A stretch of DNA of 64,000 nucleotides from Romanomermis culicivorax (taxonomy: Eukaryota > Nematoda > Enoplea > Mermithida > Mermithidae): the NCBI GenBank assembly GCA_963922205.1, contig CAWUHX010000143.1, positions 744,001-808,000 of the forward strand, read 5' to 3'. The translations under genes were made by a program, and so were the position numbers. Positions 1,952 to 26,700 of this stretch are shown here, piece by piece (position 1 is the stretch's first letter; each line of letters begins with the position of its first letter). The notes under the pieces were generated by a model that was not told the DNA's origin, ran no database searches, and saw only the letters and a program-made list of their open reading frames with translations.

Positions 1952-1954
1952 TAA

Positions 1955-5470: not shown

Positions 5471-5550
5471 GAGAAATTATTAGATAATTAAAATATTAAA
5501 ATAAATTTAAATAATTTTCTATTTTAAAACGCGTAAATGCATTTCCGGAC

Positions 5551-6459
5551 CACTAATTTTTTTTCCCGAATGGTGCTTTTTCGGGGAAAAATTCGGGAAA
5601 GGGAAAAAAATTTTGGACTTTTTCCCTATTTGGGGAAGAAAATTTTGGGGATCGGATACAGAAAACATACATTTTGGTGCATTTTAGAAGGTCAGAATCT
5701 CATAATTTTCCGGCGCTTCGCGCAGATTCTAATTTTGATTATCATTGTTATGTATTAGCTAATTCAGGAGCGGCTTTCAGCATGTTTACCTTCATTTATC
5801 ACTCAATGTATAAGAGTTTTCACCATATTGAACGTATTATCACATGTTTTAACTGGTAATCTTCAGTATTTTGCATACTATTTAATGAAGATTCGCATTT
5901 TTTCCTTGACACAGTTTTTTAGAAACATCAATACGTCAAGTCAAGTCTCTAAGCTTTCTTTCATTTTTTCCATTTCTTTCCTAACGTTAAATCAATTCAA
6001 AAGCTCCATGGAAGTAGTTTTAGGAAATTTCTACTCTTCTTACTCATATCTTTTCAGCCAAGTTCGCGAGAGTTTACAAATAAATTATACTTAAGGCCCT
6101 GTCATACCTCACCGCGCGGCCGGAAAGATAGATTAACATCTGTATTGGGTTTTCACTTGTCATCATGAAGGACTTAACTATCGATTTCTCATGTAATTCA
6201 AAGTCATTATGCTCTTGGATAGTTTGCTGGGAAATTTTTTCTACAATGCTTGTAGATTATAGACGTCAAACTCGAAAATTTAAATTTTCCCCTCAATTTT
6301 AATTAATGGCTATAAAAAACAGAAGGCTTGAAAAAGCTCAAAAACACGCGAATAAAGCGCCTATGAGCATTTTTAAGCGAAAAAACGAATTCGGGAGACT
6401 GGGGAAAAAATTTTGACCCCTTTTCCTGTTTGAGAAAAAGGCCCGGGGGAAAAACAGTG
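5551..6459 (-). mobile_element. 909-bp hAT-like element, word TTCCCCGAA
   Basis: The ends are CACTAATTTTTTTTCCCG and GGGGGAAAAACAGTG. Flanks TTCCGGAC (5543-5550) and CTCCGGAC (6460-6467) agree at 7 of 8 bases. The interior (about 5680-6330) is the same ~850-bp sequence, in reverse orientation, as in 9147-11098, 13327-14005, 15891-17000 and 22634-23702. The arms repeat TTTCCC/GGGGAAA and TTCGGG words. A fragment at 6094-6120 (AAGGCCCTGTCATAC) is a single end of the Harbinger-like element at 55434-57180. Non-coding. Confidence 0.7.
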
Positions 6460-6494
6460 CTCCGGACAGGAAACCCTAATCTCAATCAAAACAG

Positions 6495-6784
6495 CAGGCC
6501 CGTATTTAGAGGGGGTAAGGATGGAATTCCCCCACCCAAAAATTTTCTTACATTTAAAATGTTCAGCAATTTTTTTGTTCATATATATCGCAAATTTCCA
6601 AATTAAATTATTTTATTTACAAACTTTTCGCCAAATAAAGAATTTAGGTACTAATCCAAGCACACATAACTAACTGAAAATAAGTCGTCTTTACTGCAAA
6701 AATGATTTTCTTTCTATTCAGTGAATTCTAAAAATTTTTTGGAAAATTCTCCCCCCTTTTTCAAAAATCCTGGATACGGGTATG
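6495..6784. mobile_element. 290-bp MITE, CCCGTATTTAGAGGGG family
   Basis: Imperfect terminal inverted repeats CAGGCCCGTATTTAGAG and CATACCCGTATCCAGGA bound an interior nearly identical to 47423-47695 (shared GAAAATAAGTCGTCTTTACTGC). The flanks here do not give a convincing 8-bp duplication; at the second copy they do (6 of 8). A reverse partial copy lies at 18176-18400. Confidence 0.6.
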
Positions 6785-6815
6785 CAGAAGGTCAGTCAGC
6801 TTGACCATCAAAAAT

Positions 6816-7200
6816 TTTTCCCTCAAATTGATGCATAAGCACAACAAAATTTGCCTCAATTTCAAAAAAAATTCGTCGAAAATGGTCGATTGAGGAAAAA
6901 ACTGTGATTCTCTTCAGCGTTTATTTTGTGCACGGACATTTGTGCCAATTGGCACAAAGGGCCAAAAAAATTTGTGCCAATGGCACAAAAAATTTTTTCG
7001 TTCTAAAAACGTACTGAAAACCATAAAACTAATTTGCGCCAAAAGTTATAGCAATATGCCCTGTTTTCGATCTAAATTGAGTCATTTTTTAAAGCTCAAT
7101 TCGCACGCGCTTTTGTCATGTCCATAAGCTTTTCTGTATTATTCATATTTACTCTTGTATATCTTTGCGTTTAATAAATTTCTTTTCTTTCTTTCAAGTT
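6816..7200. repeat. Word-rich repeat fragments (CCTCAATT, TTGGCACAA)
   Basis: 6830-6905 has CCTCAATTT and TTGAGGAAAAAACTGTG, the style of the CCTCATTTGAGG elements. 6940-7000 has TTGTGCCAATTGGCACAAA and TTTGTGCCAATGGCACAAA. These look like element arms without definable partners. The rest is AT-rich and non-coding. Confidence 0.4.
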
Positions 7201-7399
7201 TGATAAAAACTCACTAAAGATACTTTCACTGCATTCATTTGCATAAAAATCGTGCCTGCTCTATTTTCTCTAACCACGTCAGCGAGATAAGAAAAACTGA
7301 TCTAAAAACGGTTTCTACGATCCAAAAATAAATTGAATGCTGCGAAAATTTAGATATTTTTATAGACTTTTTGTCATGAAGTTTTCCTTTACTTTTCGG

Positions 7400-7624
7400 C
7401 ATATCTGTAAGACCTCCGACCAGTTGGGGTGGGGGGTAAATCCGAAATTTTGGGGGTAGGGGGTAGAAAAAGTCGAAATTTTTCCCAAAAAAGGCCGAAA
7501 AACATACACTTTTTGGCAAATTTTTTTAATTTTTTCCAAACTGGGAGTGGGTTGGGGGGGTAAATGATTTTGGGTACAGGGTTGGCCAAGTTGGGCCCCC
7601 CCCAACCCCCCAAGTACAGGTATG
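7400..7624. mobile_element. 225-bp G-rich hAT-type MITE
   Basis: Terminal inverted repeats CATATCTGTAAG and (reverse complement of right end) CATACCTGTACTT are flanked by a perfect 8-bp duplication CTTTTCGG at 7392-7399 and 7625-7632. The interior has G runs (GGGGTGGGGGG, GTTGGGGGGG) and is shared with 12770-12982, 17331-18174, 18413-18657 and 27170-27440. No ORF belongs to it. Confidence 0.8.
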
Positions 7625-7889
7625 CTTTTCGGCCTCCTTCCTAACTACTATATTAAAGATTAAATTAGGTCTTGTCTCTATCTAATTGTTTTCTCTTGAA
7701 AAAAGCTAAGTCGAAAGTCGCTTCACGTAGTCTTTTCGTTGGATAATTGTGCCGAAAATGTCAATTTTTTTCTTTGAATCAATCACCAAAAATATAAGTG
7801 TCGGTTCTCAATCCAACTTGAATGAACAGAGGGTGTAAAGTTAACAATTTCTATTCTTTAGCCGGTCATTGACAATCTCAAAGTCTGCT

Positions 7890-8852
7890 GCGATAATACA
7901 AATAAATTCTCTATATGGGCCATGCAAATCCAAAGGTCCCCTACAATTTAGGATTGTCTGAAATTCCAGGTGAAAACCCATACGTCAGAGACTTGGGCGT
8001 ACTTATATCCCAAAACTTGAGTTTTAGAGATCACATAGCATCAATTACCAAGAAAGCCTTTAGCTTAAGTTCTTTGATAATTAGAACCTTTACTTCCCAT
8101 GATACTTCTAACCTTGTACGCGCGTTTACTGTTTATGTTAGACCCCTGCTAGAATATTGTTCAACTGTTTGGAACCCTTACTATGCCTCTGACATAAATC
8201 TCATTGAAAAAGTTCAGAGAAGATTCACAAAGAGAATATGTGGTTTTGGGTCTATCCTTTCATATGATGGGCGTTTAACTAAGCTATGCCTTGGTAGCTT
8301 AGAAATACGCCGACTACGTGCTGCCTTATGCATGATGTTTCAAATTATTAAAGGCCAATCCTGTCTGCAAAAATCGGACTTCTTTATTGGCAGTAATTTC
8401 GAGTCCACCCGTCGTAAAAATGACTACAAACTCAAAACAGGTAAAGCTAAAACAAATATTAGATTATATGATTTTTCACACAGGTACATTAATATATGGA
8501 ATGAACTTTCAGCTGAAGTTCTTAGTTCTTCCAATTTACACACATTCAAAACGAAAATCTCTAAGATTGATTTTTCTGATTATCTCGGGGGAGCGCGTTA
8601 GCCTGTTACAAATATGTAACCTGCGCTTCCTATTACCGTCATTAACTTGTTTACTGTATCGCATATTTTCGCTGCGATATTGTATTTGTCGTTTTGAAGT
8701 AGCCGTCGATTGAGTTTTCGAAACTTTTCTTCCTTTTCTTATTTCATTTTAATCGTTTGTTTTCGCGTTTTAACCTTTTTTTCTTTTCTTGTGTTATAAT
8801 TCGCCTGACAGGTAATAAATCTTCTTCATTCATTCATTCATTCATTCATTCA
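7890..8852 (+). pseudogene. LINE copy 2, 3' part of a CR1/Jockey-type element
   Basis: An open frame of about 228 codons (7915-8601) is the C-terminal part of the polymerase ORF: NPYVRDLGVLISQNLSFRDHI, FTVYVRPLLEYCSTVWNP, and near the end IRLYDFSHRYINIWNELSAE. The same blocks occur in copy 3 (17200-17330). It ends at a TAG at 8599-8601. The 3' tail ends in an (ATTC)n run at 8828-8851, as many CR1-group elements end in short tandem repeats. The reverse-transcriptase core is missing through 5' truncation. This is the best-preserved C-terminus of the three copies. Confidence 0.85.
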
Positions 8853-8859
8853 AATTATT

Positions 8860-9099
8860 CGAATAGAATCCGCTCGCGTTCGAGACAAAGGAAAGTAGTC
8901 AATATTAAATCCATTTAATCGGCGCGAAGCGCCGTGGAAATTTTGCGTTTTCAGCCCTTAAAATGACTGAAAATCAAGGAAATTTAGCCTTGGACCAGTC
9001 AAAAAATTTGTGCCGATTGGCACAAACGCTCAAAATTTTTTGTGCCATTCCAAATTTTTTTGTGCCAAAAACCATGTTTTGGCACAAAAAAAAACACTG
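8860..9099 (+). mobile_element. Half-element with TTGGCACAA words
   Basis: The stretch ends ...GGCACAAAAAAAAACACTG. It has the GC hairpin GGCGC-GAA-GCGCC at 8921-8933 and words GTGCCGATTGGCAC, TTGTGCCA and TTTTGGCACAA. A copy in reverse orientation is at 11468-11725, matching through CGCGTTCGA / GCGCGAACG. Only one terminus is seen, so its full length is unknown. Confidence 0.5.
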
Positions 9100-9146
9100 A
9101 TTCTCCTTCAAAAAGGCATTTTTGGAAAAAAATAGAACCACCCACC

Positions 9147-11098
9147 CCCTGTTTTTTTCCACAAATGTGGAAAGGGCACAAAAATCCTCGTTTTTTTGGC
9201 TTAAAAATGCTCACAGACGCGTTATCGCGCTGTTTTCGAGCTTTTTCAAGCCTTCTGGTGTTTTTAGAGAAGTTAATTCATTAAAATTGAAGAGAAAATT
9301 GAAATGTTCGACTTAAAAGCCTAATCTACAGGCATTGTTGAACAAATTTTCTAGCAAGCTATCCAAGAGCATAATTGACTTGAATTACACAAGGAATCAA
9401 ATGGTCAAGTCATTGATGACAAGTGAAAGCCCAAAAAAGATGGCAATTTTATGGGTATATATTGACATTCTGGGATGCTGGAAAATCAATTTCCGAACAT
9501 TTATTTCAAGAATTAGATTCCAATTTTGTGTTGAAGAGTCGTAATTTCTAGAATTTTACTTGAAAAATTTTAAAATCTGTAATTTATCTGTTAACTCTCA
9601 TGAACTTGGTCGAAAATATATGAGTAAGAAGAGTATAAATTTCCGAAAGATATTTCCATGAAGCTTTTGAATTGATTTTACGTTAGCAAAGAAATAATCG
9701 CATCATAAAGCATAAAGACTTGACGTTACGTTATTGATATTTCTGAAAAGGAAAAAATGCGAATCTTCGTTAAATATTATGATAAAATGTTGAATATTAT
9801 CAATTAAAACATGAGATACTACGTTTAAGATGATGAAAACTATTATAGAATAAGTGATAAATAAAGCTAGACATGATGAAACCTGCGCCTGGGCTACTGA
9901 ATAAATAATGATGATTATTAAAGTTATAGATTTGCACCTCCTAAAATGCAACAAAATGCATCTTTTCAATATGAGAACCCCAAATTTTTCTTCCACATTT
10001 GTGGAAAGACCTCAAAAATTTTTTCCACATTCCAGATTTTTTCCACATTATCACCGTTTTTTTTTCTCGAAGATTTTTTCCACATGAGAACCGGACCCAA
10101 TATTTTTTCCTCATTTTTCAAAAATTTTCCACATTTTTAAAAACGCTTATAATGTGGCTACGGATGCTTTTTTATGCATTTTAGGAGCATGCATACCCAT
10201 GCATTTTGTTGTATATGGAGTCAGAAACCTGCAAAAATGAGAAAAAAATTGAGAAAATTCTAGTTATATTAGCAAAAATGAGCTCATGAAGAATATATTG
10301 GTGTTTTACAGGAGCGGGTGAAGCATGTTAACGAATAACGATAGAGTTCTCAGGAATTTATCCGCTATTAACATTTCTATGGCTCTCATTAGAATCATCT
10401 AATTTTATTTAGTTGCGCCACAAAATTTTGGGATTTTCACTTTCTTCAACGCTGGAAATTGAACCTTCACAACGTTGGGAAATAAATTAAAATCCGACTG
10501 ATGAAGTATAATTTGTTTCCCATTCCGGCGCGGAGCGCCGGGAAAATTTTTCAGTTTTTATATTCTAAAACGCTGGGAAATGAACTTCTCTCCAACAGAT
10601 ATTCAAAAACAGAAGTTCTAAAATCGTAGTCTAGAATGATGTCTTCAATTTCTATCTTCAGTAAACGCAAAAGTTCAGATTGCAGACGTTTAAAAAATTC
10701 CAAACATCGAGAGAAAAAATTGAGAAAATTGATGAAAAATCTCAATATTGGGCGACATAATTGACTGTTAACGATTAGAAAATGAAACGAGCTAACTTGA
10801 TTGATAGAAACTGCTGAGCATTAATTAGTAAGTCGAAGTAGATATGCTAATGGCCGCGCCTGATAGAAAATAGTCAAGATTGTACCTGTGGCCGGCGCGA
10901 AGCGCCGGAAAATTTTGAGATTTTGACCCTTTTAAGTCCACCAAAATGCATCTTTTCGGTTTGGAATTCCCCAAAATTTTTTCCTCAATGAGAACCATAC
11001 CCAAATTTTTTCCTCATTTCGAAATATTTTTTCTCAAAAGACCCCATTTGAGGAAAAAAACAGTGCATTATAGTGCAAATGTGGAAAAAAAAACAGTG
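9147..11098 (+). mobile_element. hAT-like element, word CCACAAATGTGG, with nested insert
   Basis: The ends are CCCTGTTTTTTTCCACA and TGTGGAAAAAAAAACAGTG, flanked by a perfect 8-bp duplication CACCCACC (9139-9146 and 11099-11106). The interior 9190-9960 is the ~850-bp sequence shared with 5551-6459 and others. Both arms repeat CCACATTTGTGG words. The right arm is split by a second element, 10052-11065. Without that insert the element is about 0.94 kb. Non-coding. Confidence 0.75.
10052..11065 (+). mobile_element. 1014-bp element, word CCTCATTTGAGG, nested
   Basis: The ends are CACCGTTTTTTTTTCTC and TTTGAGGAAAAAAACAGTG. It sits in the right arm of 9147-11098: CATTAT occurs on both sides (10046-10051, 11066-11071), and the reverse copy at 13327 shows the uninterrupted arm. 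Two GC hairpins, CCGGCGC-GGA-GCGCCGG (10525-10541) and CCGGCGC-GAA-GCGCCGG (10892-10908), are present. Relatives are 18658-20154 and 63360-63725. Some copies mix CCTCAT and CCACAT words. Confidence 0.65.
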
Positions 11099-11467
11099 CA
11101 CCCACCTACTCATCCCTACAGTAAAAATGGGAAGAGCATGTTTGTAACATTAAAGGCAAATACTTGCGCACACTCGATGTTGTTATCACTCAAATACATC
11201 TTTTCTGTTGTTTTTCCGGGATAAGAAGCAAGGTAATTGTTTTCAATCGGGATTTATCCGACAAATTAAACGGATATCTCAATGTTTTAGTTCTTTTGGT
11301 TTTGATTGAGTGCATAAAATTAATATTATTTACACTTTTCTGCTTCAAGGCAAGATATTCGAGTTTGTTATTTCCTATGTCGGAAACCATAAGTAGTGAA
11401 TTTTGTTAGTTTCCATAAGGTTGTTATGAACTGTACTGCCAACTGCGGGGATTTTTTGAGTTCGGGG

Positions 11468-11725
11468 CAGTGTTTTTTTTTGTGTTTAAAACATGGTTTT
11501 TGGCACAAAAAAATTTGGAATGGCTCAAAAAAATTTGAGCGTTTGTGCCAATTAGCACAAAAATTTTGGCTGTTCAAACATTAAATTTCCTCGATTTTCA
11601 GACGATTTAGGGGCGGAAAATGCAGAAAATTTTCGGCGCTTCGCGCCGCGCCTAGTCATTGTCAATGAATATATTATCTATACTCGTATTTGACCCAAGC
11701 GAGCGCGAACGAGTTTTCTTCGAAC
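11468..11725 (-). mobile_element. Reverse copy of the TTGGCACAA half-element
   Basis: It begins CAGTGTTTTTTTTTGTG, carries TTGGCACAAA-type words, and the GC hairpin GGCGC-TTC-GCGCC at 11635-11647. The whole is the reverse complement of 8860-9099. The far end is not recognisable. Confidence 0.5.
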
Positions 11726-11939
11726 AGTGTATCAGCATCGTTGCAGCAAAGTTTATAGGCTGTCAATGAATGATAAATGGAAATAAATTCTGAATATTCT
11801 CTGTTCATTCAGTCACATTCGGATTTAAAACTGAAATTCTTACTTTATGTGCTTGATTCATTCAAATAGAAAATACGATATCCTTAGTAATGGTACATTG
11901 TTCCGACCGAAAATTTACACAATTTTCGACTTTATGGAA

Positions 11940-12660
11940 TTTTTGCAGAGTACGGTGGCGGTGGTCCTAGCACTTGCAAAGTGGATTTTCGGTGTTTTTA
12001 TGGTACCGGCAACAAACTGCAACCAAAAAAACCAGGTGCTCAAGGACAGGGAGGGAGATAGACTAATTTGCATAATTCATATGCAAATTAAGTAAAATGG
12101 GCAAAAATATGGAGTTTTTGGAAAGCAGAAGTTGCATTTTTGGCACCTGGTATTATGATTGCTGTTAGTATAGCCATAGCCCCATAAAAACCCCCAAACT
12201 CCACTTTTCAAGTGCCAGGGCCACCAAAATTGGCCTAAGCCTAAGCCTAAGCCTAGGTACGTACTTATACAACAAAGGACGCAGTTTACTGTAGGGTATA
12301 AAAAAATCACTGTTCTTCGCATTGGCCCCAGCCGCCGCTGCTCGTTTTTGCGCACCGCTTCGCTTCGTCTGCAGCCATCGGTAGTGACGAGCGCCCCCTA
12401 AAGTAAAAAAATTATGAATGTGGCGGTTCCGTTGTAGGTAAAATGCTGAGCATTTTAGCCCAATTCTACAGTTATTTAAATTTTCTCAGCATTGCATGTT
12501 TTTCGAGTCGTCTTGAACTACTTGCACAGTTTTTTTCTCATCTCACTGACATGGTTAGTTGAAGGATATGTTGGGCACGATTTTTACAAAATATTAATGC
12601 GTTAAACGTCAACTTTTTATCAAAATTTTGGCCTAAAACCTTTCCACAGTTTTCAGTATA
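11940..12660. repeat. Repeat-derived region with a TTAGGC-type run
   Basis: Facing word pairs are seen (GTGGTCCTAGCACTTGCAAAGTGGATTTT-like at 11955 against AACTCCACTTTTCAAGTGCC at 12197). A short (GCCTAA)n run at 12232-12257 is the nematode telomere hexamer; the opposite orientation occurs at 13189-13209. 12360-12660 shows no recognisable feature. Confidence 0.4.
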
Positions 12661-12769
12661 TGTTTCTAGTAGAAAAATTTTTTTGTGCCATTGGCACAAA
12701 TTTTTTTCCGTGCACTAAAAGAAATCGCTGTCGAGGTTTTTCGAGCGCACCTGTAGTTGGCAGCATACC

Positions 12770-12982
12770 CATACCTGTACTTGGGGAGGTTGGGGGGGAC
12801 CCCCCAACTTGGCCAACCATATACCCAACCCCCCCCCCCAGTTTGGAAAAGATTAAAAAAATTTGCTAAAAATTGTATGTTTTTTGGCCTTTTTTGGAAA
12901 AATTTCGACTTTTTTTCGACCCCTCCCCCCAATTTCGGATTTACCCCCCCCCCCCCAACTGGTCGGAGGTCTTACAGGTATG
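12770..12982. mobile_element. 213-bp G/C-run hAT-type MITE
   Basis: Terminal repeats CATACCTGTACTTGGGG and CATACCTGTAAGACCTCC face each other. Flanks AGCATACC (12762-12769) and ACCATACC (12983-12990) agree at 7 of 8. Same family as 7400-7624 in the opposite orientation. Long C runs up to 14 bases are present. Confidence 0.7.
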
Positions 12983-12989
12983 ACCATAC

Positions 12990-13312
12990 CATACCTGAAA
13001 TTGAAGTAGGGTTTGTTTGGGGGACCCCCGGCCCCCCCCCCCCCAACTTGGTCGAACCATAAGTATACCCAAATGTTGAAACGGAATTTTTTTAAAGTCG
13101 GTTCCCTTCCCAATTATGGTCTAAACTAGCATTTTTAGGGTAAATTACGGATGGCGGTGGCCGCCGAATTTACCCTACCTTTAAAATTTTCCCTAGGCTT
13201 AGGCTTAGGGTACAGCAGCTGCGCCCGAAGGGCGCAGCGCTGTTGAGGCTCTTCCAAATGTTTCGGCGCGGCCACCGCCAATTTCGGCGTGGCTACCAAC
13301 ATCTGTAAAAAC
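12990..13312. repeat. Partial G-rich MITE and GGCGGTGGCC word region
   Basis: 12990-13085 starts CATACCTGAAATTG with C runs and resembles the MITE at 12770 without a clear right end. 13150-13310 has GGCGGTGGCCGCC and GGCCACCGCC words, the inverted hexamer run GGCTTAGGCTTAGG (13193-13206) and the hairpin GCGCCCGAAGGGCGC. No gene. Confidence 0.35.
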
Positions 13313-13326
13313 TCCCATTTTCGGAC

Positions 13327-14005
13327 CACTGTTTTTTTCCACATTTGCACTATAGTGGAAAAAAATCTGGAATGTGGAAAAATTTTTTGAGGTCTTTCCA
13401 CAAATGTGGAAGAAAAATTTTGGGTTTTCATAGTGAAAAGATACATTTCAGGAGGTCCAAATCTTTAGGTATTCATCACTAAGCTCAGGCGCGGCTTTTA
13501 GCATGTCTACCTTCACTTACCATTTAATCTTCAATAGTTTTCATTATCTTAAACGTATTATTCAATGTTTAATGGGCAATCTTGCATATTATATCTCTAT
13601 ATTTAATGAAGATCTGCATTCTTTCCTTCATAGATTTTTTTGAGAATGATCAACACGTCAACTTTCTCAACCTTTTGAAGCGTTTGTTCTTTTCTTAACG
13701 TGAATTCAATTCAAAAGCTTCATGGAAGAATTTTTGGAAAATTTCTACACTCCTGACTCATTGCTTTTCGGCTAAATTTATGAAACGTTACGAACAAAAC
13801 ATTGGTTTTAAAATTTTTCAAATAATAAATTTCTAGAAATTACGATCTATGAACACCAAATTTAAATCTATTTTTTGAGATATATGATCAGAATAATTAT
13901 CAGAATGCTTTAAAAAGCTCAAAAACACTTAGATGAAGCGTTTATGAGCATTTCAATCAAAAAGCGAGGATTTTAAGACCAAAAAAATTTTTTCCACATG
14001 TGAAA
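13327..14005 (-). mobile_element. Truncated hAT-like element, word CCACATTTG/TGTGG
   Basis: It begins CACTGTTTTTTTCCACA and runs through the shared ~850-bp interior in reverse orientation (GCTCAGGCGCGGCTTTTAGC at about 13485). The far arm stops after TTTTTTCCACATGTG near 14000 without the expected AAAAACAGTG end, so this end was lost. Its intact arm shows what the arm of 9147-11098 looked like before 10052-11065 inserted. Confidence 0.6.
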
Positions 14006-15515
14006 AGAAAAGGAAAAGAAAAAAGGAAAAATGTTATCACTAGCTTAGAGACATTTAGTATTGCGCGGATATAAGCTCAAATAGGCTATACATCGTTTTT
14101 TAAATACATGAACATTAACAGCGGATGTAACATGACTAGGTTACCTATCTTTCCCCATGCTAGAACTCGAAACTTTATTAAGGCTGATTATGTGGCTATT
14201 TCAGATTTATTATCCCACACATCTTGGCTGGACTTATTTTCTACATGTGCCGATGCTGATGACATGTACAAGGTTTTTTTGGAAATTTTAAACCATGCTA
14301 TAAACAACGTTGTCCCTGTTTTTAAACCAAAAAAGTTTAAAACACGTTATCCAAACAACATTCGAAAATCTCTCACCAAAAAACTAAGACTTTGGAAAAG
14401 GTATAAAAAAACAAAATTACCTACTGACAAGTCAAGGTACCAAATTCATTGTGAGTGTGTAAAAACACTGATGCTTTCTCATCAGGTGGATATTGAGCAA
14501 AATCTGATCAAAAAATCTGACCCCAAATCATTTTTCAAATTCGTCAACTCTAAAATTCAATCAAAGAAAACTATCCCCCCTTCAGTAAGTAACAGTGAAA
14601 CTATCATTCTTGATGATCTTCAAAAGTGTACACTTTTCAATGAATATTTTAGTTCAGTTTTTACTCATGATGATGACTCCACTCTTAATATCCTCCCCAG
14701 AACAACTTCCAAAATTTCATCGGTTTCATTCACAGTAGACTTGGTTGGTATAGCACTCAGAAAATTAAAACCCTCTCTAGCTCTAGGCCCGGATGGTTTG
14801 TGTGCCTATTTCCTGAAGAAACTTTCTGCCTGTTTGGCTGAACCACTCTCACATATTTTTGAAGTTTCTTTCAGAACTGGATCACTCCCCTTATTGTCGA
14901 AAAAGGCTAACATTGTTCCTGTATTCAAAAAAGGCGACCCTGCCCTTCCTTCCAACTATCGGCCTATCTCTTTGTGCAGTGTGCCTTGCAAGATTATGGA
15001 AAGTATCATTAACTCCTCTATCATGTTTTATCTGAGAAATAATTCTCTCTTAACTCCATGCCAGTTTGGTTTCCTCCCAACAAAATCTTGTGAAACACAA
15101 TTACTTCAATGCAAAAATGTATGGACCAAACACATCGATTCCGGCTTGCCAATCGACACAATTTACATTGATTTCAAGAAAGCCTTTGATTCCCTTTCTC
15201 ACAAAAAATTGATGCTTAAATTGAAAACCTATGGTATCTCAGGCTTTCTTGAGTAGTGGATCTTAGATTTCCTCTCAACTTGGACCCAGAGAGTCTGTAT
15301 CAATAATGTCACTTCTCAGTTTGCTCCCGTCTCTAGTGGTGTTCCTCAGGGTAGTGTTCTAGGTCCTACACTTTTCTTGTTATTTATCAATGATCTCCCT
15401 GACAATCTAACATCTGATATCTATCTTTTTGCTGATGATGTTAAGATCTTTAATTGTTCCAGAAACAAACGTATCCTCAAAGATGATCTTGATCAAATTT
15501 TTGGTTGGTCCAAAA

Positions 15516-17146
15516 TAGAGCTTGACACGACAAAAATTTCGTACCCAGGTACCCATTTATCCATTACCCGGGTACCCCAATTACCCGGGTATACCCGAGT
15601 ACATGTTAAAATGAGTTGTAATGTTAATGTACATAGACAGATACACTGAAAATAGAATGATGCATTACACACACTCCGTATTCCCTACTACATAATATTT
15701 TTCAACACTTGTGTTGAAACACTGGTTGTGTTGTCGTATACAATAGGCTGCATAGGTAAGTATAGTGCGAATATAATGCTAGAGATGATGATTGATACAC
15801 ATCATCGACGCACCTATGCTGCAAAATACTACACATCACATCACGATAGCTCAATATTATTGACGAGACAAAGCAAAATTTGCATACCTCCAGGGTTTTT
15901 TTTTGACCTACGAGTCACAAGCCAAGTGGCTTGTTGACCTTAAATTTTATAAGCCATTCCAAATTTTTGCAAACCAATTTTATAATATCAGTATACATGA
16001 ATAAATTCCAATGCTAGGTTATTTTTTAAAGAAATGTATATATTGAGCATCACGGCAATCAATCAAAAAAGAGATGTCATTCAACATTTATTCAGTAAAA
16101 TTTTAGAGCCGTTAATTCATTAAAATTCAGGAAACATTTGAAATTTTTGAGTTTGATCCAAGTCTAATCTACAAGCATTGTGGAAAAGATTTTCCAGCAA
16201 ACTATCCAAGAACATAATGTTTTCGAATTACATGAGAAATCGATGGTTAAGTCGTCTATGATCACAAGTGAGAGCCCAAAAAAGCTATTAATCTTTCCTG
16301 CCTGAAACGCTGGAAAATTTTTTTGGGTATTGACATTCTGCGATACTGGAAAATCAATTTTCCAACCACTTGTTTGAAGAATTAGTTTCGAATTTTCTGT
16401 TCAAAGGTCGTAATTTCTGGAATTTCATGTTTGAAAAATTTTAAAATCATTAATTTATTCACACACTCTAATGAACTTGACCAAATAGATATGAGCAAGA
16501 AGAGTAGAAGTTTCCGAAAACTACTTCAATGAAGCTTTTGGATTGATTTTATGTTGAGAAAGGAATAACCACTTCAAAAAGTTTACAGACTTGACGTATT
16601 GATCTTTTAAAAAAATATGTCAAGGGAAAAATGTGAATCTTCATTAAATATCAAGATTAAATATTGAAGATTACCAATTAAAACATGAGATAATACGTTT
16701 AAGATGATTAAAACTATTAAAGTTTAAATGATAAATGAAGGTAGACATGTTAGAAGCAATGCCTGAGCTAGGAAATGAATAATAATGCATATTTAGGTTA
16801 TAACTGGTGCGAAGTGCCGGAAAATTTTGAGATTATGACCTTCTAAAATGCACCAAAATGCATCTTTTCTGTATCCGATATGATCAAAATCATGACTCAA
16901 AAAATTCTTACAAGCCATTTTTGCTTGTTAGACTAAAATTCTACAAGCCATTTTTTCAGTCCAACAAGCCATGGCTTGTAAAAGGCTAAAAAAACTATGC
17001 ATACACCTCTACTCTCAAGTCTACATATTATACGTGATACAAAACGGGTACCCGAATTACCCGTGTATCCGGGTATACCTGGGTAATGGTTTCCATTTTG
17101 TACCCCCGTATACCCGGGTAATTCAGGAACCCGGTGTGAAGCTCTA
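15516..17146. mobile_element. hAT-type element, word ACCCGGGTA, inside LINE copy 3
   Basis: Terminal inverted repeats TAGAGCTTGACAC and TAGAGCTTCACAC are flanked by a perfect 8-bp duplication GTCCAAAA (15508-15515 and 17147-17154). Both arms carry ACCCGGGTA / TACCCGGGTA words (15540-15600, 17045-17125). A second element, 15891-17000, sits inside; without it the length is about 0.52 kb. The LINE sequence continues on both sides. Confidence 0.85.
15891..17000 (+). mobile_element. 1110-bp hAT-like element, word ACAAGCCATGGCTTGT
   Basis: It starts CAGGGTTTTTTTTTGACC and ends GGCTAAAAAAACTATG. Flanks CATACCTC (15883-15890) and CATACACC (17001-17008) agree at 6 of 8. The left arm has CACAAGCCAAGTGGCTTGT and the right arm ACAAGCCATGGCTTGTA, so both ends use the same word. 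The interior is the ~850-bp sequence shared with 9147-11098 and 22634-23702. Non-coding. Confidence 0.7.
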
Positions 17147-17330
17147 GTCCAAAAAATAGCAATTAGAAATTTCTGCTGAAAAAAAGTACTGTTCTATATT
17201 TGGGTTCTTCAAATCCAAAATACAATTACACAATGGGTAATTCTGTTATTCCCGGCAACAATCCATACGTTAGAGATCTTGGTATGTACATCTCCCAAAA
17301 TTTAAATTTCAGGGATCACCTCAATTATAT

Positions 17331-18174
17331 AATTTTTGGGGGTGGGGGTCCCAACATTTCTAAAATTTTGGGAATGGAGGTCGAAAAAACCCCAAAATAG
17401 TCGAAAAAATTTCAAATATTTTCCCAAAAAAGCCACTTTTTTCCAATTTTCCTGAGTTTGGGGGAGGTTGGGCATAAGGTTGACCAAGTTGAGGTGGTAG
17501 TCCCAACATTTGGGTATAGGGTTCGACCAAGTTGGGGGTGGGGTTCCCCCCCCCCAATTACAGGCAGGTTTTTTTTGCACACAGCAACCAAATTTTGGGC
17601 TGTGCAACCAAATTTTTTCTGCCAAGTTGCACAGTGCAACTTGAGGCCTGATTTTACAAAAAAAATTTTACTATCTTCATAAAAATTTCGACTTTCATGT
17701 GATTAGAACATTTTGAGTGTAGAAATTTTTGCCGATTGAAAGATCCAAATTCTTAGTCGCTTGCCTAGTTTTTGAATTTTACTTTGTCTGACTGAAAATT
17801 CATCAAATTCACTGAGAAATCAAACCTGTCTGGAAAATAAAAGGTGAAAAGATCCATTTTCCAGCATTCTAGAATATTGCAATCCAGAAAAAAATTTCGG
17901 CGCTACGCGCCGCACACATTACTTTAGTCTAGTCATATTAATCTTTTCATTTTCTCCCCAAAACACAGAAAATGGGTACTTATTTAAATGTCTAAAACTG
18001 ATGCTGATCGAATGAAATACAAGAAAACTAGTTTGCGATGGTTTTTTGGATAAATTTAAGCAAATTTATCCATTTTAGAGTGAGCAACCAAAAATTTATC
18101 TGTGCAACGAAAATTTTTCCCCAAGTTGCACATTGCAACCTGCCCTGTGCAAAAAAAACCTGATTACAGGTGTG
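17331..18174. mobile_element. G-rich MITE copy interrupted by GTTGCAC element
   Basis: 17331-17564 is the G-rich MITE interior (GGGGTGGGGGTCCC, AACATTTGGGTATAGGG). Its end, ATTACAGGTGTG, is completed only after the nested element 17565-18162. The left terminus (expected CATACCTGTAAG) is missing where it meets LINE copy 3. Confidence 0.55.
17565..18162. mobile_element. 598-bp hAT-type MITE, word GTTGCACAGTGCAAC
   Basis: Terminal repeats CAGGTTTTTTTTGCACA match at both ends (17 bases). A perfect 8-bp duplication ATTACAGG flanks the element (17557-17564 and 18163-18170). Arms repeat GTTGCACAGTGCAAC and GCAACCAAATTTT words. The GC hairpin GGCGC-TAC-GCGCC lies at about 17900. No ORF, so it depends on a transposase elsewhere. 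This is the clearest complete copy of its family; fragments are at 3028 and 5120-5470. Confidence 0.85.
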
Positions 18175-18175
18175 C

Positions 18176-18400
18176 CAGGATTTTTAAAAAAGGGGGAAAT
18201 TTCCCTGAATTTACTGGATAAAAATAAAATCATTTTTGCAGTATAGACGACTTATTTTCACTTAGTTTGTTCATGCTTTGATTAGTGGCTATATTCTATG
18301 TTTGACAAAAAGTAATGTAAAAATTTAATTTGGGAATTGTGATGTATAAGTACAATGATATTGCTGAAAATTTTATTCTATAATTTATGATTTAAGTTTA
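18176..18400 (-). mobile_element. Partial reverse copy of the 47423-47695 MITE
   Basis: Blocks AAAAAAGGGGGAAATT, GCAGTATAGACGACTTATTTTCA and GGGAATTGTGATGTATAAGTACAATGATATTGCTG are the reverse complement of 47423-47695. The outer end is not clear. Confidence 0.55.
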
Positions 18401-18412
18401 ATCTAACACTTA

Positions 18413-18657
18413 CATACCTGTAAGAGCTCCGACCAGTTGGGGGGTCCCGAAATTTCTAAAATTTTAGGGAGGGGGGTCGAAAAGACCTTAAAAAGTCAAA
18501 AAAAATTCGAAAATTTTCCCAAAAAAGGCCAGAAAAAGCCACTCTTTTGCTAATTTTTTTCAATTTTTCCTAGTGTGGGTGGAGGTTGGGTATATGGTTG
18601 ACCAAGTTGAGGGTGGGGGTCCCAACATTTGGGTATAGGGTTCGACCTATATGGGGG
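18413..18657. mobile_element. G-rich MITE copy, left end intact
   Basis: It starts CATACCTGTAAGAGCTCC and follows the interior of 17331 closely (CCCAACATTTGGGTATAGGG). It is cut at 18657 by the start of the next element (CACCGTTTTT), and its right terminus is not recovered after 20154. Confidence 0.55.
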
Positions 18658-20154
18658 CACCGTTTTTTTTACTCCAAGATTTTTTCCACATGAGAACCGG
18701 ACCCAAATTTGTTTTCCTCATTTTCCAAAAATTTTCCACATTTTAAAAAACGTTTATAATGTGGCTATGGATGTTTTTTATGCATTTTAGGAGCACACTC
18801 AAGATTTTTGTTGTATTTCGATGAGTTAGAAACCTGCAAAAAAGAAAAAAAATTGAGAAAACTGTAGGAGCGCTGCAAATCAATCAATATCGATAGCAAT
18901 TAAGCAATCTACAGTAAACAGTGATGCCCTCATAGTCACGCGCATGCCAGACAAACCTACGCTATCCAATCCTACTGTAGACACTATACCAAGATCCTTT
19001 GCCTTACGTCACTGAGCCTTTTTTCATTTATTAAAAACATACGTAACAGGAAAGCAATGGACGTCATGACTACGCCTACAAAGATTAGAATCTAAAGTCA
19101 CGTGATACTATGACATAATATCCCAGTTTTTATACCTTTTCTTTTATATATAAACGTCTGTTTTGTATGTAAAAATCACTTCACTTCGCTTCACTTCATT
19201 TTATCTCATTTTATTTTGCCTTATTCTCAATAAATTTAGCTTACCTGCTTTTCTGCTCTTTGACAAAGTCGTAGGGTCGTCCTGTAAAACATCGTCCACA
19301 TTGTCCGGACGTGCAACTATTGGAAGCTGGAAAGAAACGTATTTTCGTTACGAGACTAAACTTTTCTTTTTAAAATTACCTTAGCATTTTCCTGAGCGTT
19401 GCCATCGTCGTTTCCATTGGCGTTTCTGAAGAAAACGGAATAACTTAAGAACATTTTGAGCATTCAGTCCGATTTGCAGGTTGTTCAGCTACAGTAACCT
19501 GTATTTACCCTTAACCCAAAAATAGGCAACCCCTACAAAACTCTGGTTGTGTTAGTCAAAATGAGCTCATGAAGAATATATCGGTGTTCTACAGGAGCGG
19601 GTAAAGCATGTTAACGATAGAGTTCTCATGAATTTATCCGCTATTAACAGTTCCGATTAGAATCACCTAATTTTATTTAGTTCTTTGTCTGGCGCAGAGG
19701 TTCTAAAATTGCAGTCTACAATGATGTCTTCAATTGCCATCTTCAATAAACCCGAAAGTTCAGGTTGCAAACGTTTAAAAATTCCAAGCATCGAGACAAA
19801 AAAATTGAGAGAATTGAAGAAAACTCTAAATTTTCGGCGATATAATTGACTGTTAACGATTAGAAAATGAAACGAGCTAACTTGATTGATATAAACTGTT
19901 GAGCATTAATTAGTAAGTCGAAGTAGATATGCTAACGGTCGCGCCTGATAGAATATAGTTATCATTATACCCATGACCGCCGCGAAGCGCTGGAAAATTT
20001 TTGAGATTTTGACCTTTTAAAGTCCACCAGAACGCATCTTTTCGGTTTAGAGTTCCCCAAAAGTTTTTTCACAATGAGAACCATACCCAAAATTGTTTTC
20101 CTCATTTCGAAAATTTTTTCCTCAAAAGGCCCCATTTGAGGAAAATAAACGGTG
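18658..20154 (+). mobile_element. Element of the CCTCATTTGAGG family with insert
   Basis: The ends are CACCGTTTTTTTTACTCC and TTTGAGGAAAATAAACGGTG. It matches 10052-11065 through most of its length (GAGCTCATGAAGAATATATC at about 19560, GTTAACGATTAGAAAATGAAACG near 19850). A 673-bp insert, 18864-19536, makes it longer. Flanks TATGGGGG and GTTGGGTG agree only at 5 of 8, so the duplication is doubtful. Confidence 0.6.
18864..19536. mobile_element. 673-bp insert with 6-bp AAAACT duplication
   Basis: The copy at 10052-11065 lacks this segment, which fixes both borders. AAAACT is present at 18858-18863 and 19537-19542. The ends GTAGGAGCGCTGC and (reverse complement) GTAGGGGTTGCC are weakly inverted. 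Only short ORFs are inside. I cannot assign the superfamily. Confidence 0.55.
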
Positions 20155-20191
20155 GTTGGGTGTGGGAGACCCCCTCAACCTCCCCGCCAAT

Positions 20192-20635
20192 CATACATGT
20201 AATTGGGGGGGGGGAAGTGCTATGGGAACCCCCCCCAGAAATCGTCGACCATATGGCTAGCCATTGGGCGACCCCCCCCCCCAGGATTTTCCAATCATAT
20301 GGCTAGCCATATGGTAGCCCTGGGGACCCCATATTTTTTGTCGGAAAAATACTGAAAAATGTCAATTTTTTTATTTAAAATGTCAATTTTTGAACAAAAA
20401 ATGGTCAAAAACGTCAATTTTCTCGGCGCGTCGCGCCATAAGTACATATTCTATCATTTTTTAGACAAAAATTACTACTTTTTAAACCGTTTTTCGGACA
20501 TTTTTCATGGAAAAAATCGAATTTTTTTTCCTCCAGGGACCCCTCCCCCCAAAATTTTGGGAATTACTGACCCCCCGGCCCCAAAAAAGTGCTCCAATCT
20601 CCCTCCCCAGACCTCGAAGCTCCGTTACATGTATG
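20192..20635. mobile_element. 444-bp hAT-type MITE, word CCATATGGCTAGCCAT
   Basis: Terminal repeats CATACATGTAA and (reverse complement of right end) CATACATGTAACGG are flanked by a perfect 8-bp duplication CCGCCAAT (20184-20191 and 20636-20643). It contains CATATGGCTAGCCATATGG, G/C runs and the hairpin GGCGC-GTC-GCGCC (20424-20436). It is nearly identical to 21719-22164. Confidence 0.85.
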
Positions 20636-20720
20636 CCGCCAATGCAGGTATGCACATACCTGTAAGGAGTTCGACCGTTTGGGTCCGATCAGTAATAGTG
20701 TATTACTTGAATTTATGATA

Positions 20721-20728
20721 TTTTTCAG
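20721..20728 (+). promoter_or_regulatory. Candidate 5' splice-leader or intron acceptor (TTTTTCAG)
   Basis: TTTTTCAG precedes the KLHL20 start codon by 59 bases. Between them there is an in-frame TAA (20740-20742) and no ATG, which supports 20788 as the first codon. In nematodes such a site could accept a trans-spliced leader or end a 5'-UTR intron. Which one applies cannot be told from DNA. Confidence 0.4.
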
Positions 20729-20787
20729 AAATATTGAAGTAATAATAAATTTATAATAAAGCTCACGTGGAGCGTGTCATTTTTCTT

Positions 20788-23700
20788 ATGGCTTGCTCCG
20801 CGCCTAGTAGTCTCGAAAGGGCGCATACTCCTACAAAGATGCGGTATTGCAGTGAAAAGCATCCTAGATCCGTCTTAGAGACTTTCAACTCTTTACGGCG
20901 CGACGGTGAACTTTGCGACATCACCATTTTGATTGGCGAAAAACGGATTTCGGCCCATAAGTTGGTATTGTGCGCCTGCAGTCCATACTTCCAAGCCATG
21001 TTCAAGTCGGAAATGGCCGAAAGTCGCCAAACGGAAGTTTGTATCAAAGACGTCGATGAAAACGCCATGGAAATTATGATCGAGTTTTGTTACACGGCGA
21101 ATATAGTTATCGAAGAGTCGAACGTTCAAACGCTGCTACCGGCTGCTTGTCTATTACAGTTACAAGAAATACAAGACGTTTGCTGCGATTTTTTGAAAAA
21201 GCAGCTGGATCCCACCAATTGCTTGGGTATTAGGGCGTTTGCCGATACGCACGCTTGTCGGGATTTATTAAGGATAGCGGATAAATTTACGCAGCAGTAC
21301 TTCCAAGATGTAAATTAATTTTTTAGTATTTTCGGGTTGCCGAAGTGCCCAAGTTTCGTGTGTACATGTCAGAAGTCCACGAGGTCAGATTTTGAGGTAG
21401 GGGTAAAATACCAAGTTTGTGAGGGAAGAGGATTACCTAGATATCCAATAAAAATGATATTTTCTCCCAGAATCTTCATACCCCTCCATTTTTAGAACGG
21501 TAGATAGAGGCAATACTTCTCCTAGGCATACGTATTCTCAGCATTCGATTGAAATTAGGGAAGTTTTTCTTGTATAACTATCTATCATTTTTTACTCTTT
21601 CCGATACATTTTTGGACATATGGTTTTTTTCAATCTTTTCGTTGATGAATTCTTTTTCAAATTGCATTTAAAGATTTCTTGAAATAGCATTCAAACCAGA
21701 GTGCCCCATGGGCAGGGGCATACATGTAATTTGGGGGGGGGGGAAGTGCTATGGGAATCCCCCCCCCCAGAAAGCGTCGACCATATGGCTAGCCATTGGG
21801 CGACCCCCCCAGGTTTTTCCAATCCTATGGCTAGCCATATGGTAGCCCTAGGGACCCCCATAGTTTTGGTCTGAAAAATACTGAAAAATGTCATTTTTTC
21901 ATGAAAAATGTCAAATTTTGAACAAAAAATGGTCAAAAACGTCAATTTTCTCGGTGCTTCGCGCCATAAGTACATATTTTATCATTTTTTAGACAAAAAT
22001 TACTACTTTTTAAACCGTTTTTTCGGACGTTTTTCATGGAAAAAATCGAATTTTTTTTCTTTCAGGGACCCCACCCCCCAAAATTTTGGGAATTACTGAC
22101 CCCCCGGCCCCAAAAAAGTGCTCCAACCCCCCCCCCCAGACCTCGGAGCTCCGTTACATGTATGGGCAGGGGTATGAGGGGGTATTATCCCTACCTAAAG
22201 TCCTTAAAATCGACCACTGGCTGCCTAATTTTGGGTCAAAATTACGTGTTTAGTGGACATTTAGCTACACTACCCCCGAAAATTTTCAATTTTACCCCTA
22301 CCTGAAAAATCTGACCTTGGGGACCTCTGATTCAAACATTTGTTGCAGGTTGTCGAAAGCGAAGAATTTCTGCTCTTGCCTGTTAATCAATTAATCGACA
22401 TAATTTCGAGCGACGAATTGAACGTCAGATCAGAAGAGCACGTTTTCAAAGCAGTTATGAACTGGATACGCCACAATGTTGCGGAAAGACGTCAATATTT
22501 ATCGAAAGTATATCCTTCCTTGTGTTTTTCACGGTTCCAAAAGTCTGCTGGGAAAGTGGTTCTTTTCATTCAAATGAGTTATTAATGTAAAATGGATATT
22601 TTATTCTGCGTCGTCATTATTCAGTCTGAACACCAGGGTTTTTTTGTGCATGACCCATTTGCACATGTACAAACGGGAGCCAATATTTCATTTGTACAAT
22701 TTGTACATAGCAAAAATGAGTATAAATAAGTAACCTGTGTTCCTCTACATCGTGGCCAAAGACTAATAACCAAATAAGTGTAATTTTCAAATTTTATTCA
22801 TATCTGCGAAAAAAATTCATTAAAATTGAAAAAAAATTGATATTTTCGAGTTTCGAGTCTAATTTACAAGCATAGTGGAACAAATTTTCTAGAAAACTAT
22901 CCAATGGCATAATGAATTTGCGTTAGATGATAAATCGATGGTTAAGTCCTCTATGATGACAAGTAAAAACCCCAAAAAGATGTTAATCTTTCCGGCGCTT
23001 GGCGCCGGAAAATTTTTTTGTGTATTGACATTTGGCGACGCTGGAAAATCAATTTTCCGAACATTTATTCCCAGAATTAGATTCGAATTTTGTGTTTAAA
23101 AGTCATAATTTTTAGAATTTTATTAGTCGAAAAATTTTAAAACCACTAATTTATTCGTTAACTCTCATGAACTTGGCCGAAAAAATATGAGTGGAAGAGC
23201 ATAAATTTCCGAAAACTACTTCCATGAAGCTTCTGAATGATTTTACGTCAAGAAAGGAATAATCGCTTCAAAAAGTTTATAGACTTGACGTATTGATTTC
23301 AAAAAAACATATTCAAAAAATGTTTTAAGGATGAACTGTGAATCTTCATTAAATATCATAAAATATTGAATATTACCTCTTAAAACATGAGATAATACAT
23401 TTGAGATGATGAAAACCATCATACATTAAACGATAGGTGAAGGTAGACATTCTGAAAGCCGCGTCTGAGCTAGGCAACATAACATGTACATATTAATGAT
23501 TATCAAAGTTATATCCGGCGCCAAGCGCCGGAAAATTTTGAGATTATGAACTTTTAAAATGCACCAAAATGCATATTTTCTGTACCTTATCCCCAAAATT
23601 TTCTTCCCTAAATGAGGAAAGAGCCATTTGTACATACACAAATGACTACCTCAATTTCGTTTGCCCCAAATATTTTCATTTGAGTCCGGCAAAAAGACAC

Positions 23701-26700
23701 TGCTTAACACCAATTATGGTTGGTCGTGTTGCATACTCGAACCGTATAATTTTCGTTATCAAAATTCTTGGCGTATCGTCGTTAGTTTTCTGAAATTTTC
23801 GTGATTTATATAAAGTTGAATTTGATAGAAGTTTACGGTGCAAGCTATCAAAATTTAGAAATTGTGGATGCACCCTCAAATATTACTAAATAGACTACGA
23901 AGATTTCAAAACTATCACCGCGACAATGCTTGACTTGAACCTGATTTTTGTAGGTTCTGGAGCACGTCCGACTTCCGCTTTGTAATCCTAAATTTCTTGT
24001 TGGTACCGTCGGATCAGATAATTTAGTTAAAGCAGACGAATCTTGCCGCGAATTAGTAGACGAAGCAAAAAATTATCTACTCCTACCGCAAGAAAGACCG
24101 CTGATGCAAGGACCACGCACGAGGTGCCGTAAACCTATCCGATACGGCGAAATACTTTATGCCGGTAAAGCATTATTTAATTATATTTTTGTCTAATGTA
24201 CACACACAAATGAATATCAATGAACATTTCGATGCCCAATTTTTTAAATGCCCTAAAAAGTGCGTTGACTCATATAAACTTAAAAATCAACCTTTATGGC
24301 ATCATGTTCATTTTTGGTGATATACATATATGCTCTGTAATGGACATTTAGTTCATACACGTAATTGAGGAGTGCCATATAGGAACCCCGCAGAAATCGC
24401 CTGCCATATGATCAGCCATACCTGAACAAATTTTGCCGGTCAATCTGATTCCACTGAACGTAGGTTGGTTCTCGAGTCGTTTTGATCTGGTGCTAGCAAC
24501 CAGCTCACCTGATATCAAAGTTACCTCATATGATACAGAGTTGCATTCAGTTGAACCAGTTGTCCGGCTGTGTAGCTAGTCCTACCAGGACTCTCCAATG
24601 TATGATTACGGTCAGTTGGGATCCCATACTTTTCAAACAGGGACTAGGGAACGGCCCCGGGCAAGCTTTTTTACCATGAGCCACATTTAAAGGTTACTGG
24701 TAACCTTTAGGTGTGGCTGACTTTGCATCTGAAATATACATGCATACATTTAATTGGTGGGATGGGAATTGCCATAAGAACCCCTCAGAAATCGTCGGCC
24801 ATATTGTGACCCCTTCAAGATTTGCCAAGCATGTAGCTGAAGCATCATGAAAATCTCATCCTTTTCAACGGAAAAAAGCTGTAAAATATCAATAATTGAT
24901 AGAAATTGGTCATTTTTGAACAAAAACAATTAAAAATGTCAATTTTTTGACGCTTCGCGCCTTACATACATATGAGTTACTATTTTTGAATCGTTTTTCG
25001 GACTTCTTAGGCAAAAATTTGAAAAAAAATTCTTCAGCGATCCCCCAAAAATTGTGAGCAATCGATGACCCTCTCCCACAAAAAGTCGCTTTAACCCCCT
25101 TCCCCAGGTCTCGGGGTTCCGTTACATGTATAGTTCCAAATCTTCTGACAGTCTGAAGCCTGAAGCCCAGCCCAGGCTCTCCCGCTATCCTCAGGTATGG
25201 AAAGGAGTAGACGGATGTCCAATGTTTTGGGGGAGGAGTCAGCAAGTGTTTTAAAATGCTTTATTCGACCAAAAAATTGAAAAACTCACTTATGATCAAT
25301 TAACTTTTGTTTTTCAAGTGATACTGATTAGTGAGCATTATTTCGATTCGAAGTTCCGTAAAATTTTCGCATTTTCGCCGATTTTCCATCGTAAAAGTCA
25401 ATTAAAAAACAGGTATTTTTCGTCGATTTCCACCCGCTTAAGGGTTACTTTTGATTTTTAAAATGATGAAAATAAATAGCAGTAAAGCAGAGACCCCATT
25501 CTTTTGGACGAAAAAAGCTGAAAAACGCTCTTTTTTGTAAAATAAATTGTGAATTCTGAATAATAAATCGTTGTAAATCTTATCGGCCTTCAATACGAAT
25601 TCTAATATTTTGTGGAACAATTAATGTTTTTTGGTATTTTAGACGAAAGATCAGAAACTTTTTTTTCAACGACATTCCTCCCTATCTAAATTTTGGTAAA
25701 CCGATCACTCCCATCCCACTAATAAAAAACCTGACTGTTCCATCCAGACGTCAAAGCTCCGTTACATATATGACCTGGTTCCCTATAATTGTACCACGAT
25801 GACGATTCGGGAACGAACTCAACCAACTTTCTGGCCTAAGACCAGCAGCCAGTTCCAAGAAAGTGTCTCTCGCGCGGAAATGCTCTGTCTCTCGATTTTT
25901 GCTCTGTTTTGGCTCTCCGAGAGACAAAAGAGAGAAAATGGATTCCACGAAATTGTCTCTGACGGAGAGATGCTCTGAGAGCTGGCTCTCTTGGAGAGCG
26001 GCTCTGTGAAATGGCTCTGCAAGAGACAGTTTAGAGCCAAATAGGTTGCACGAATCAAAAAAAGTGCTCACGCGAGCAAGAGTAGAGCCAAAACTTGTAA
26101 GCCTGCTAGGGGCTGGCTTACGACTGTCTCTGTTTTGTCTCTCTTATATTTTTAGTACGAATTGGGTCGTATATTAAGACTTCGTTATGCTGTAGAGTAA
26201 TTATTCGTATTTTAAGTCATTCATAGCTCCTCTCTATCGCGATTTTTTCCCCGTACGGCAGAAAAAAATTGTTTTTTTTATTTAGCATTGAAGATTCAAA
26301 AATTGACATTTTTGTTAAAAATGGAGCGCAGTAAAACGACATTTTCCAGGGAAGGGGTCATCGATTGCTAGAAATTACCTCAGGAACGGACACAATAAAG
26401 AAAATAAATCGATTTTTTGGACTAAAAGGTTCACAAATCACTTCAAAAAGTAGTTTTCATCTACAAAAACCATGAAAAAACGACGACCCAAAAAATTGAC
26501 GTTTTGACCGTTTTTTTGCTTGAGAAAACACGATTTTTCAACACAACCTTACCATTTTCGACAGTTTTCTCCCGAATTACCTGCCGAAGAATTGCCATTT
26601 TAGTTGATTTTTTTCTTCAAAAGTTAACATTTTTTACCAAGAAATTGATCTTTTCAATCGCATACTTGTAAGAGCTCCGGACCGTTGAGTACACGATTAA

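Follow-up and report, generated by a model that had tools for sequence, protein, structure and literature searches.

One interior between arms of different word families in probable non-autonomous hAT-type transposons of Romanomermis culicivorax

Transposons that share an interior and have changed ends are already known. In the accessible parts of the published accounts, Galileo of Drosophila mojavensis, a member of the P superfamily, includes copies with both TIRs of one subfamily and the interior of another (PMC3573991), and the CMITE elements of Acropora, which are piggyBac-like MITEs, combine one interior with different TIRs, a pattern whose cause the authors leave open (PMC2872659). The original prediction for the DNA described here, that no described element family behaves in this way, was wrong, as both cases are in print. 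Among hAT elements, the BED domains of Hermes bind subterminal repeats, two as a quasi-palindrome (PMC10368747). Work on hAT-derived CGG-binding proteins reports that the motifs of four hAT proteins match the subterminal regions of their own elements and that hAT-type BED parts prefer different motifs (PMC8097297).

We analyzed a stretch of 64 kb of R. culicivorax DNA (C143:744001-808000, hereafter the window) and searched the genome over 359 Mb and 595 contigs. Like the elements of the window, Galileo has subfamilies with different arms, swapped interiors and chimeras without matching flanks, but it belongs to the P superfamily and has 7-bp flanks and long TIRs, whereas the window copies have 8-bp target-site duplications (TSDs) and short, unlike arms; palindromic words and fossil arms inside new arms set the window elements apart from what is accessible on Galileo (PMC3573991). 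The CMITE interior is likewise conserved across families with different TIRs, but these are elements of ~100 bp with a 75-bp interior and a TTAA TSD, unlike the window copies, and palindromic subterminal words, present in the window elements, receive no mention for CMITE in the accessible part of that report (PMC2872659). Hermes and other hATs have short BED-bound subterminal repeats placed differently at the two ends, a layout like the one seen here, but Hermes, as far as its report is accessible, is a single element without a series of words on one interior (PMC10368747). The BED/Hermes DNA-binding parts of different hATs differ in motif, as the words do here, although the CGG-binding proteins are mostly domesticated and were compared across species, whereas here the arms change in non-autonomous elements (PMC8097297, accessible part). 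A literature search that left most subscription journals out of reach did not find any paper on hAT elements whose arm words change. Three features were not met in the accessible accounts of these parallels: their occurrence in hAT elements, the count of words borne by a single interior, and ends preserved as fossils.

Self-BLAST of the window located the interior common to five copies at 9262-9928(+), 16101-16802(+), 22814-23599(+), 5651-6317(-) and 13355-13898(-), with identities of 72-81% between aligned pieces and of 66% between the pieces of copies 1 and 3. This bears out the interior that had been predicted to be shared by these copies, and the ends read by hand lie at or very near the predicted boundaries. 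The word elements of the window are as follows, with the evidence for each in brackets.

5551..6459, minus strand: copy 1, hAT-like non-autonomous element with a TTCCCC-type word (ends, interior match)
6915..9099: GTGCC-word element, TSD ATTCTCTT/ATTCTCCT (ends, TSD scan, arm matrix)
9147..11098, plus strand: copy 2, CCAC-word element holding a nested CCTC-word element (ends, interior match)
10052..11065: the CCTC-word element nested within the right arm of copy 2 (self-BLAST, ends, profile)
13327..14005, minus strand: copy 3, CCAC-word element with one end cut (interior match)
15516..17146: CCCGGGTA-word element with exact TSD GTCCAAAA, holding copy 4 (ends read)
15891..16999, plus strand: copy 4, ACAAGCC-word element (ends read)
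17565..18162: TTGCAC-word element with exact TSD ATTACAGG (TSD scan, arm matrix)
22634..23702, plus strand: copy 5, TTTGTACA-word element with a fossil TTCCC-type word in the inner right arm (ends, alignment)
32657..34223, minus strand: GGATCC-word element with exact TSD TGGATTAC (BED finger at 33695-33826)

Copy 2 is flanked by an exact TSD (CACCCACC on both sides), its right arm being situated beyond the nested second element. The TSDs of copy 1 (TTCCGGAC/CTCCGGAC at 5543-5550 and 6460-6467), copy 4 (CATACCTC/CATACACC) and copy 5 (CTGAACAC/CTTAACAC) are imperfect, matching at 7/8, 6/8 and 7/8 letters, respectively; copy 3 is without its outer second end, and copies 1, 2 and 4 each have one end with deviating letters. 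Since four copies are flanked by TSDs that lie outside the arms, arms and interior form one transposed unit. These flanks rule out, for copies 1, 2, 4 and 5, that the arms are independent inserts of unrelated elements, the outcome that the original prediction had named as fatal to its idea. Copies 1, 4 and 5 measure 909-1,109 bp. No frame of at least 100 aa lies inside any interior, one frame (13135-13446) overlapping an arm of copy 3, and a first look at the genome gave 6,150 candidate interiors, 40 of which were scored; in being short, transposase-free and present in high copy number, the copies are MITE-like. We consider it probable that they are non-autonomous hAT-type transposons in which one passenger sits between arms of related word families.

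Nesting occurs twice in the window: copy 4 lies within the element at 15516-17146, which itself adjoins a reverse-transcriptase frame (14108-15256, RVT_1), and the element at 10052-11065 lies within copy 2. The flanking 8-mers of the latter are unmatched as read, and its right part matches the common interior. In the GTGCC-word element at 6915-9099, the interior profile did not detect the shared interior. Near copies of copy 5 (L040, C466:61804-62569, 95%, with the same flanks) and of copy 1 (C466:85708-86325, 98%) both lie on contig C466, which looks like a second haplotype or a duplicate of the window region.

The arms of the five copies had been predicted to use five different words, each shared by the two arms of a copy. 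The arms do differ in word, but the words are four, since CCACAAATGTGG and CCACATTTGTGG are reverse complements and represent one word on opposite strands. Agreement between ends was scored from shared 6-mers of left and right arms in ten families, each with one representative and arms of 140 bp, which in some families include part of the interior; for CTGCA, the two arms paired were taken from different copies. The mean score was 22.0 within families and 6.7 between families (permutation p = 1e-5), so that the predicted agreement holds across the ten families taken together. The own partner was the row maximum in 6/10 families and the column maximum in 6/10; the misses include the right arms of copies 1 and 5 (23) and the CTGCA left arm with the copy 1 left arm (15), and they are due to older words inside newer arms, to the likeness of CCAC and CCTC and to interior sequence within the 140-bp arms. 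Individually, copy 1 (score 13), copy 5 (10) and the CTGCA pair (13) do not reach significance, the maxima of their own shuffles being 13, 14 and 14, respectively.

TGTACA was found in both arms at 23/30 loci of copy 5's family, these loci being the best matches, chosen by likeness to copy 5, related by descent and not 30 independent copies, as they include the window copy (L039) and its same-flank duplicate (L040). In the remaining seven, one arm is truncated or changed or, in L052, is of another kind. CCACAAATGTGG is present at 1,490 + 1,478 places in the genome (control: 12 and 14). The first 100 places listed contain 24 neighboring pairs at most 1.5 kb apart, 20 of them convergent, with a median spacing of 915 bp, and the 29 TTTGTACATGTACAAA places listed for these contigs are all more than 1.5 kb away from these 100. 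The abundance of other words was 850 places for TTTGTACATGTACAAA (control 1), 873 for ACAAGCCATGGCTTGT (control 0) and 4,387 for GTGCCAATTGGCAC (control 0). Agreement is not strict, because the CCTC family is mixed, its left half-sites being 10 CCTC : 10 CCAC. The CCTC-word elements (L006, L028, L029, L030 and window 10052-11065) present CCTC, CCAC and some CCCC half-sites, and theirs is the one CC-type family counted that has clearly non-uniform arms.

The interior profile yielded 85 matches in the window and the sampled loci. The words found on this interior are CCAC, TTCCCC, TTTGTACA and ACAAGCC; copies that were not sought by their interior add CTGCA(C) (L058 and L063 on the left, L026 and L031 on the right) and TTTTGCAC, the latter in the right arm of a single copy (L010). 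The CCTC family matches the right third of the profile only. A tree built from 36 interior rows requires seven word changes, where the least possible is six and the shuffled mean is 16.9, which indicates that words track the lineages of the interior instead of being freely reshuffled. The tree has a weak backbone and the CCAC word falls in two clades. Its TTTGTACA rows are L038, copy 5 and 16 loci drawn from the 30 of copy 5's family, with L052 kept under its own label. L052 is sister to these 18 rows (100/100 for all 19); at 1340-2380 it combines an old CC-type left arm with a TTTGTACA right arm, with no matching TSD by eye, and a search of this locus for an upstream TTTGTACA left arm found none. 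L052 is either a recombinant or an intermediate.

Our proposal for how one passenger came to lie between different arms is as follows. The repeated, often palindromic words of each arm would most likely be DNA sites for the BED-finger transposase of one hAT family, and both ends would need the site for the element to move, so that only matched pairs would multiply. The same ~750-bp passenger now lies between the arms of six word families or more (TTTTGCAC being represented by one arm of one copy). Two steps of change have left traces. In the first, new arms were added outside an old end, and the traces are the CC-type end and terminus kept in the CTGCA family and the old inner word kept on the right in the TTTGTACA family; this would proceed by nested insertion and deletion or by recombination, and the rare matched product would then be amplified. 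In the second, the word changed in a coordinated manner on arms that still align (CCAC/CCCC; CTGCAC/TTGCAC), presumably following a change of transposase. The match between ends would be inherited from the founder and not upheld by exchange from end to end.

The traces of the first step can be read in the arms. Inside the new arm, the CTGCA left arms hold a segment that matches the left end of the TTCCCC element, beginning at the terminus and running inward, with alignment scores of 60 in L058 and 58 in L063 (shuffled maxima 34 and 42; 0/500 each). As the L058 stretch scores 59 against the CCAC end, the alignment identifies an old CC-type end and not its word. Half-sites over L058 and L063 are 5 CCCC, 1 CCAC and 1 CCTC, and by these half-sites (5/7), not by alignment, the fossil word would mostly be CCCC. 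In copy 5, the right arm inside the TTTGTACA part aligns with the right arm of copy 1 (score 66, shuffled maximum 36, 0/500) and scores 32 (2/500) with the CCAC right arm, whereas the outer TTTGTACA right arm shows no match to copy 1 (175/500 shuffles). No element preceding a capture was seen among the copies examined.

Interiors could also be exchanged without any nested insertion, if copies underwent ectopic recombination or conversion with each other and both breakpoints fell within the element. Such exchange has been proposed for Galileo, the elements here are numerous and close together, and L052 is a one-sided chimera with no matching TSD by eye, like the chimeras in the accessible account of Galileo (PMC3573991). 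The old terminus inside the new CTGCA arm, however, fits addition from outside and not reciprocal replacement. We consider ectopic exchange rather unlikely as the general explanation; it may explain the ACAAGCC and TTTGTACA families.

The arms might instead all be homologous, their words having diverged together with the transposases by plain descent and with no capture. Arms of several families do align beyond their shuffles (z 5.4 to 6.6): CCAC-CCTC left at 6.2, TTCCCC-CCAC left at 5.4, CTGCA-GTGCC left at 6.3 and CTGCA-TTTTGCAC right at 6.6. Even the outer CTGCA arm aligns with the TTCCCC end (39, shuffled maximum 36, 0/500), which suggests that some arms are themselves distant relatives. 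Nevertheless, the ACAAGCC arms show no alignment to any other family tested (z between -1.1 and 1.5) and the fossil arms lie inside new ones, and descent without capture appears improbable to us.

The original prediction had offered two causes of matched ends: arm-to-arm correction, or new arms fitted to different transposase specificities. Gene conversion between the arms of a copy would keep the ends matched as the word drifts, and it would account for the agreement of the ends and for the CCAC and CCCC families, whose alignable arms differ by one coordinated, arm-wide half-site letter (TTCCNC half-sites: CCAC family 18/18 left and 25/28 right; CCCC family 4/5 and 2/2). The left and right arms of copy 5's family nevertheless have different forms. 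The left central word is TTGCACATG in 11/30 loci and TTGTACATG in 6/30 (13 other or unparsed), the right one is GTACATG in 11/30 and GCACATG in 1/30 (18 other or unparsed), left GCAC and right GTAC occur together in four loci of the TTTGTACA family, and changes private to one arm are absent from the other. Moreover, the two arms are laid out differently and align at z 0.2 to 5.3 (first 12 bp omitted). Correction between arms is therefore not supported and we consider it very unlikely. The second cause has support in kind from the fossil arms and by six finger clades that adjoin six words, described below.

The assignment to hAT draws on ends, flanks and domains. The short TIR consensus of hAT elements is of the CA-nn-G type, and CACTG, CAGTG and CAGGG ends are present here. 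We scanned 307 kb, blind to words, for CA-nn-G ends accompanied by a T run and flanked by 8-mers that match. The scan returned 24 pairs with at most one mismatch, 14 of them exact, versus 0-6 and 0-1 in ten offset controls; these counts include three pairs (two exact) that look false by eye (L055 646-2081, window 10159-12416 and 44062-47041), 15/24 come from loci taken for copy 5's family, and L029 and L030 share a flank and may be one insertion. Its strict rule missed window copies 1, 2, 4 and 5, whose ends were read by hand. Window copies have 8-bp TSDs, as expected of hATs (one exact, three imperfect, one cut). Dimer_Tnp_hAT gave 1,837 first-look candidates genome-wide, and 150/150 of those scored exceeded the cut-off. 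Foldback elements differ in having long inverted arms of tandem repeats; the word arms here are ~80-120 bp, and the only tandem repeats that a repeat finder reported in such arms are two-copy 20-bp arrays (10105-10143, 18712-18750), besides the short arrays of the GGATCC element. CACTG ends recall CACTA elements, which resemble them in this respect, but the TSD of CACTA is 2-3 bp and the TSDs here are 8 bp. That these are CACTA or Galileo-like P-superfamily elements is highly improbable: Galileo does have long arms with several THAP sites, in the accessible part of its description (PMC3688188), but the 8-bp TSDs speak against both, and the P superfamily is weakened by the finding of two THAP domains in the whole genome against the 1,837 hAT candidates.

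Words accompany BED fingers elsewhere in this genome. One transposase element could be read at both ends, with an exact TSD (ATATATAC), GGATCC words in both arms, zf-BED near the left (E 4e-13) and Dimer_Tnp_hAT near the right (E 6e-23). The transposase elements of L026 and L037 carry words in both arms and have, by eye, TSDs of 7/8 and 6/8 letters; a word array lies beyond the domain in several of the transposase loci listed (30 taken), and a word-bearing arm was found upstream of 8/10 further BED fingers, with no clear word arm in L077 and L080. Six BED-finger clades, 28-56% identical, adjoin six words: GGATCC, ATCGGCC, CCCCGAC, CCTCGGC, GGTGCC and CCCCATCCCC, counted on both strands for four of the words and in one orientation only for GGTGCC and CCCCATCCCC. 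Two fingers that are 88% identical share GGATCC. The original prediction had proposed a search for transposases whose own ends carry each word; words were found beside six finger clades of other hAT families, but no transposase with CACTGTTTTTTT/CAGGGTTTTTTT ends and a window word was found. L069 was considered as an autonomous CACTG-type element, but other repeats lie outside its frame (GCCGCAAAAA by eye). L070, with CCAC words spaced 3.9 kb apart, proved to be a CCAC element broken up by other repeats (TSD GAGTGGAA by eye), with a longest frame of 136 aa. The left end of the GATATCCGGATATC transposase is not in L072. By likeness to the other hAT families, the window words are most likely binding sites of the BED-finger transposases of hAT families.

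L069 has an 844-aa open hAT-domain frame (1099-3633, minus strand), and several hAT-domain matches score identically or almost so, suggesting, from sequence, possible recent activity.

A broader reading, which we hold tentatively and at somewhat less than even chances, is that one non-coding passenger switched transposase at least three times by acquiring new arms outside or in place of the old ones, leaving fossil ends behind. The genome would then hold a large series of BED fingers and words, non-autonomous elements would outlive their transposase by switching, and the words would record a BED recognition code. If true, arms would tell, like fossils, by which transposase an element was moved and at what point this changed, transposons would have a testable route of escape from the loss of their transposase, and natural pairs of finger and site would be available from which the DNA preferences of BED zinc fingers could be learned.

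The GGATCC-word element at 32657-34223 derives by deletion from a BED-finger hAT transposon of the GGATCC family. It keeps an open 70-aa BED-finger frame (33695-33826, minus strand) and a disrupted dimer end. Of 150 scored genomic BED matches, 37 (counted by hand) have exactly its score of 43.9 bits, and such a family, reduced to the finger, could repress its own transposon. Two elements 92% alike, at 20192-20635 and 21719-22164, carry words like CATATGGCTAGCCATATGG and flank an exon of a BTB/BACK gene (20767-21318); they represent another word family, and L071 holds sequence similar to theirs. Finally, a degenerate GCCTAA array of ~31 units lies inside the contig at 45224-45409 and resembles a nematode telomere repeat.
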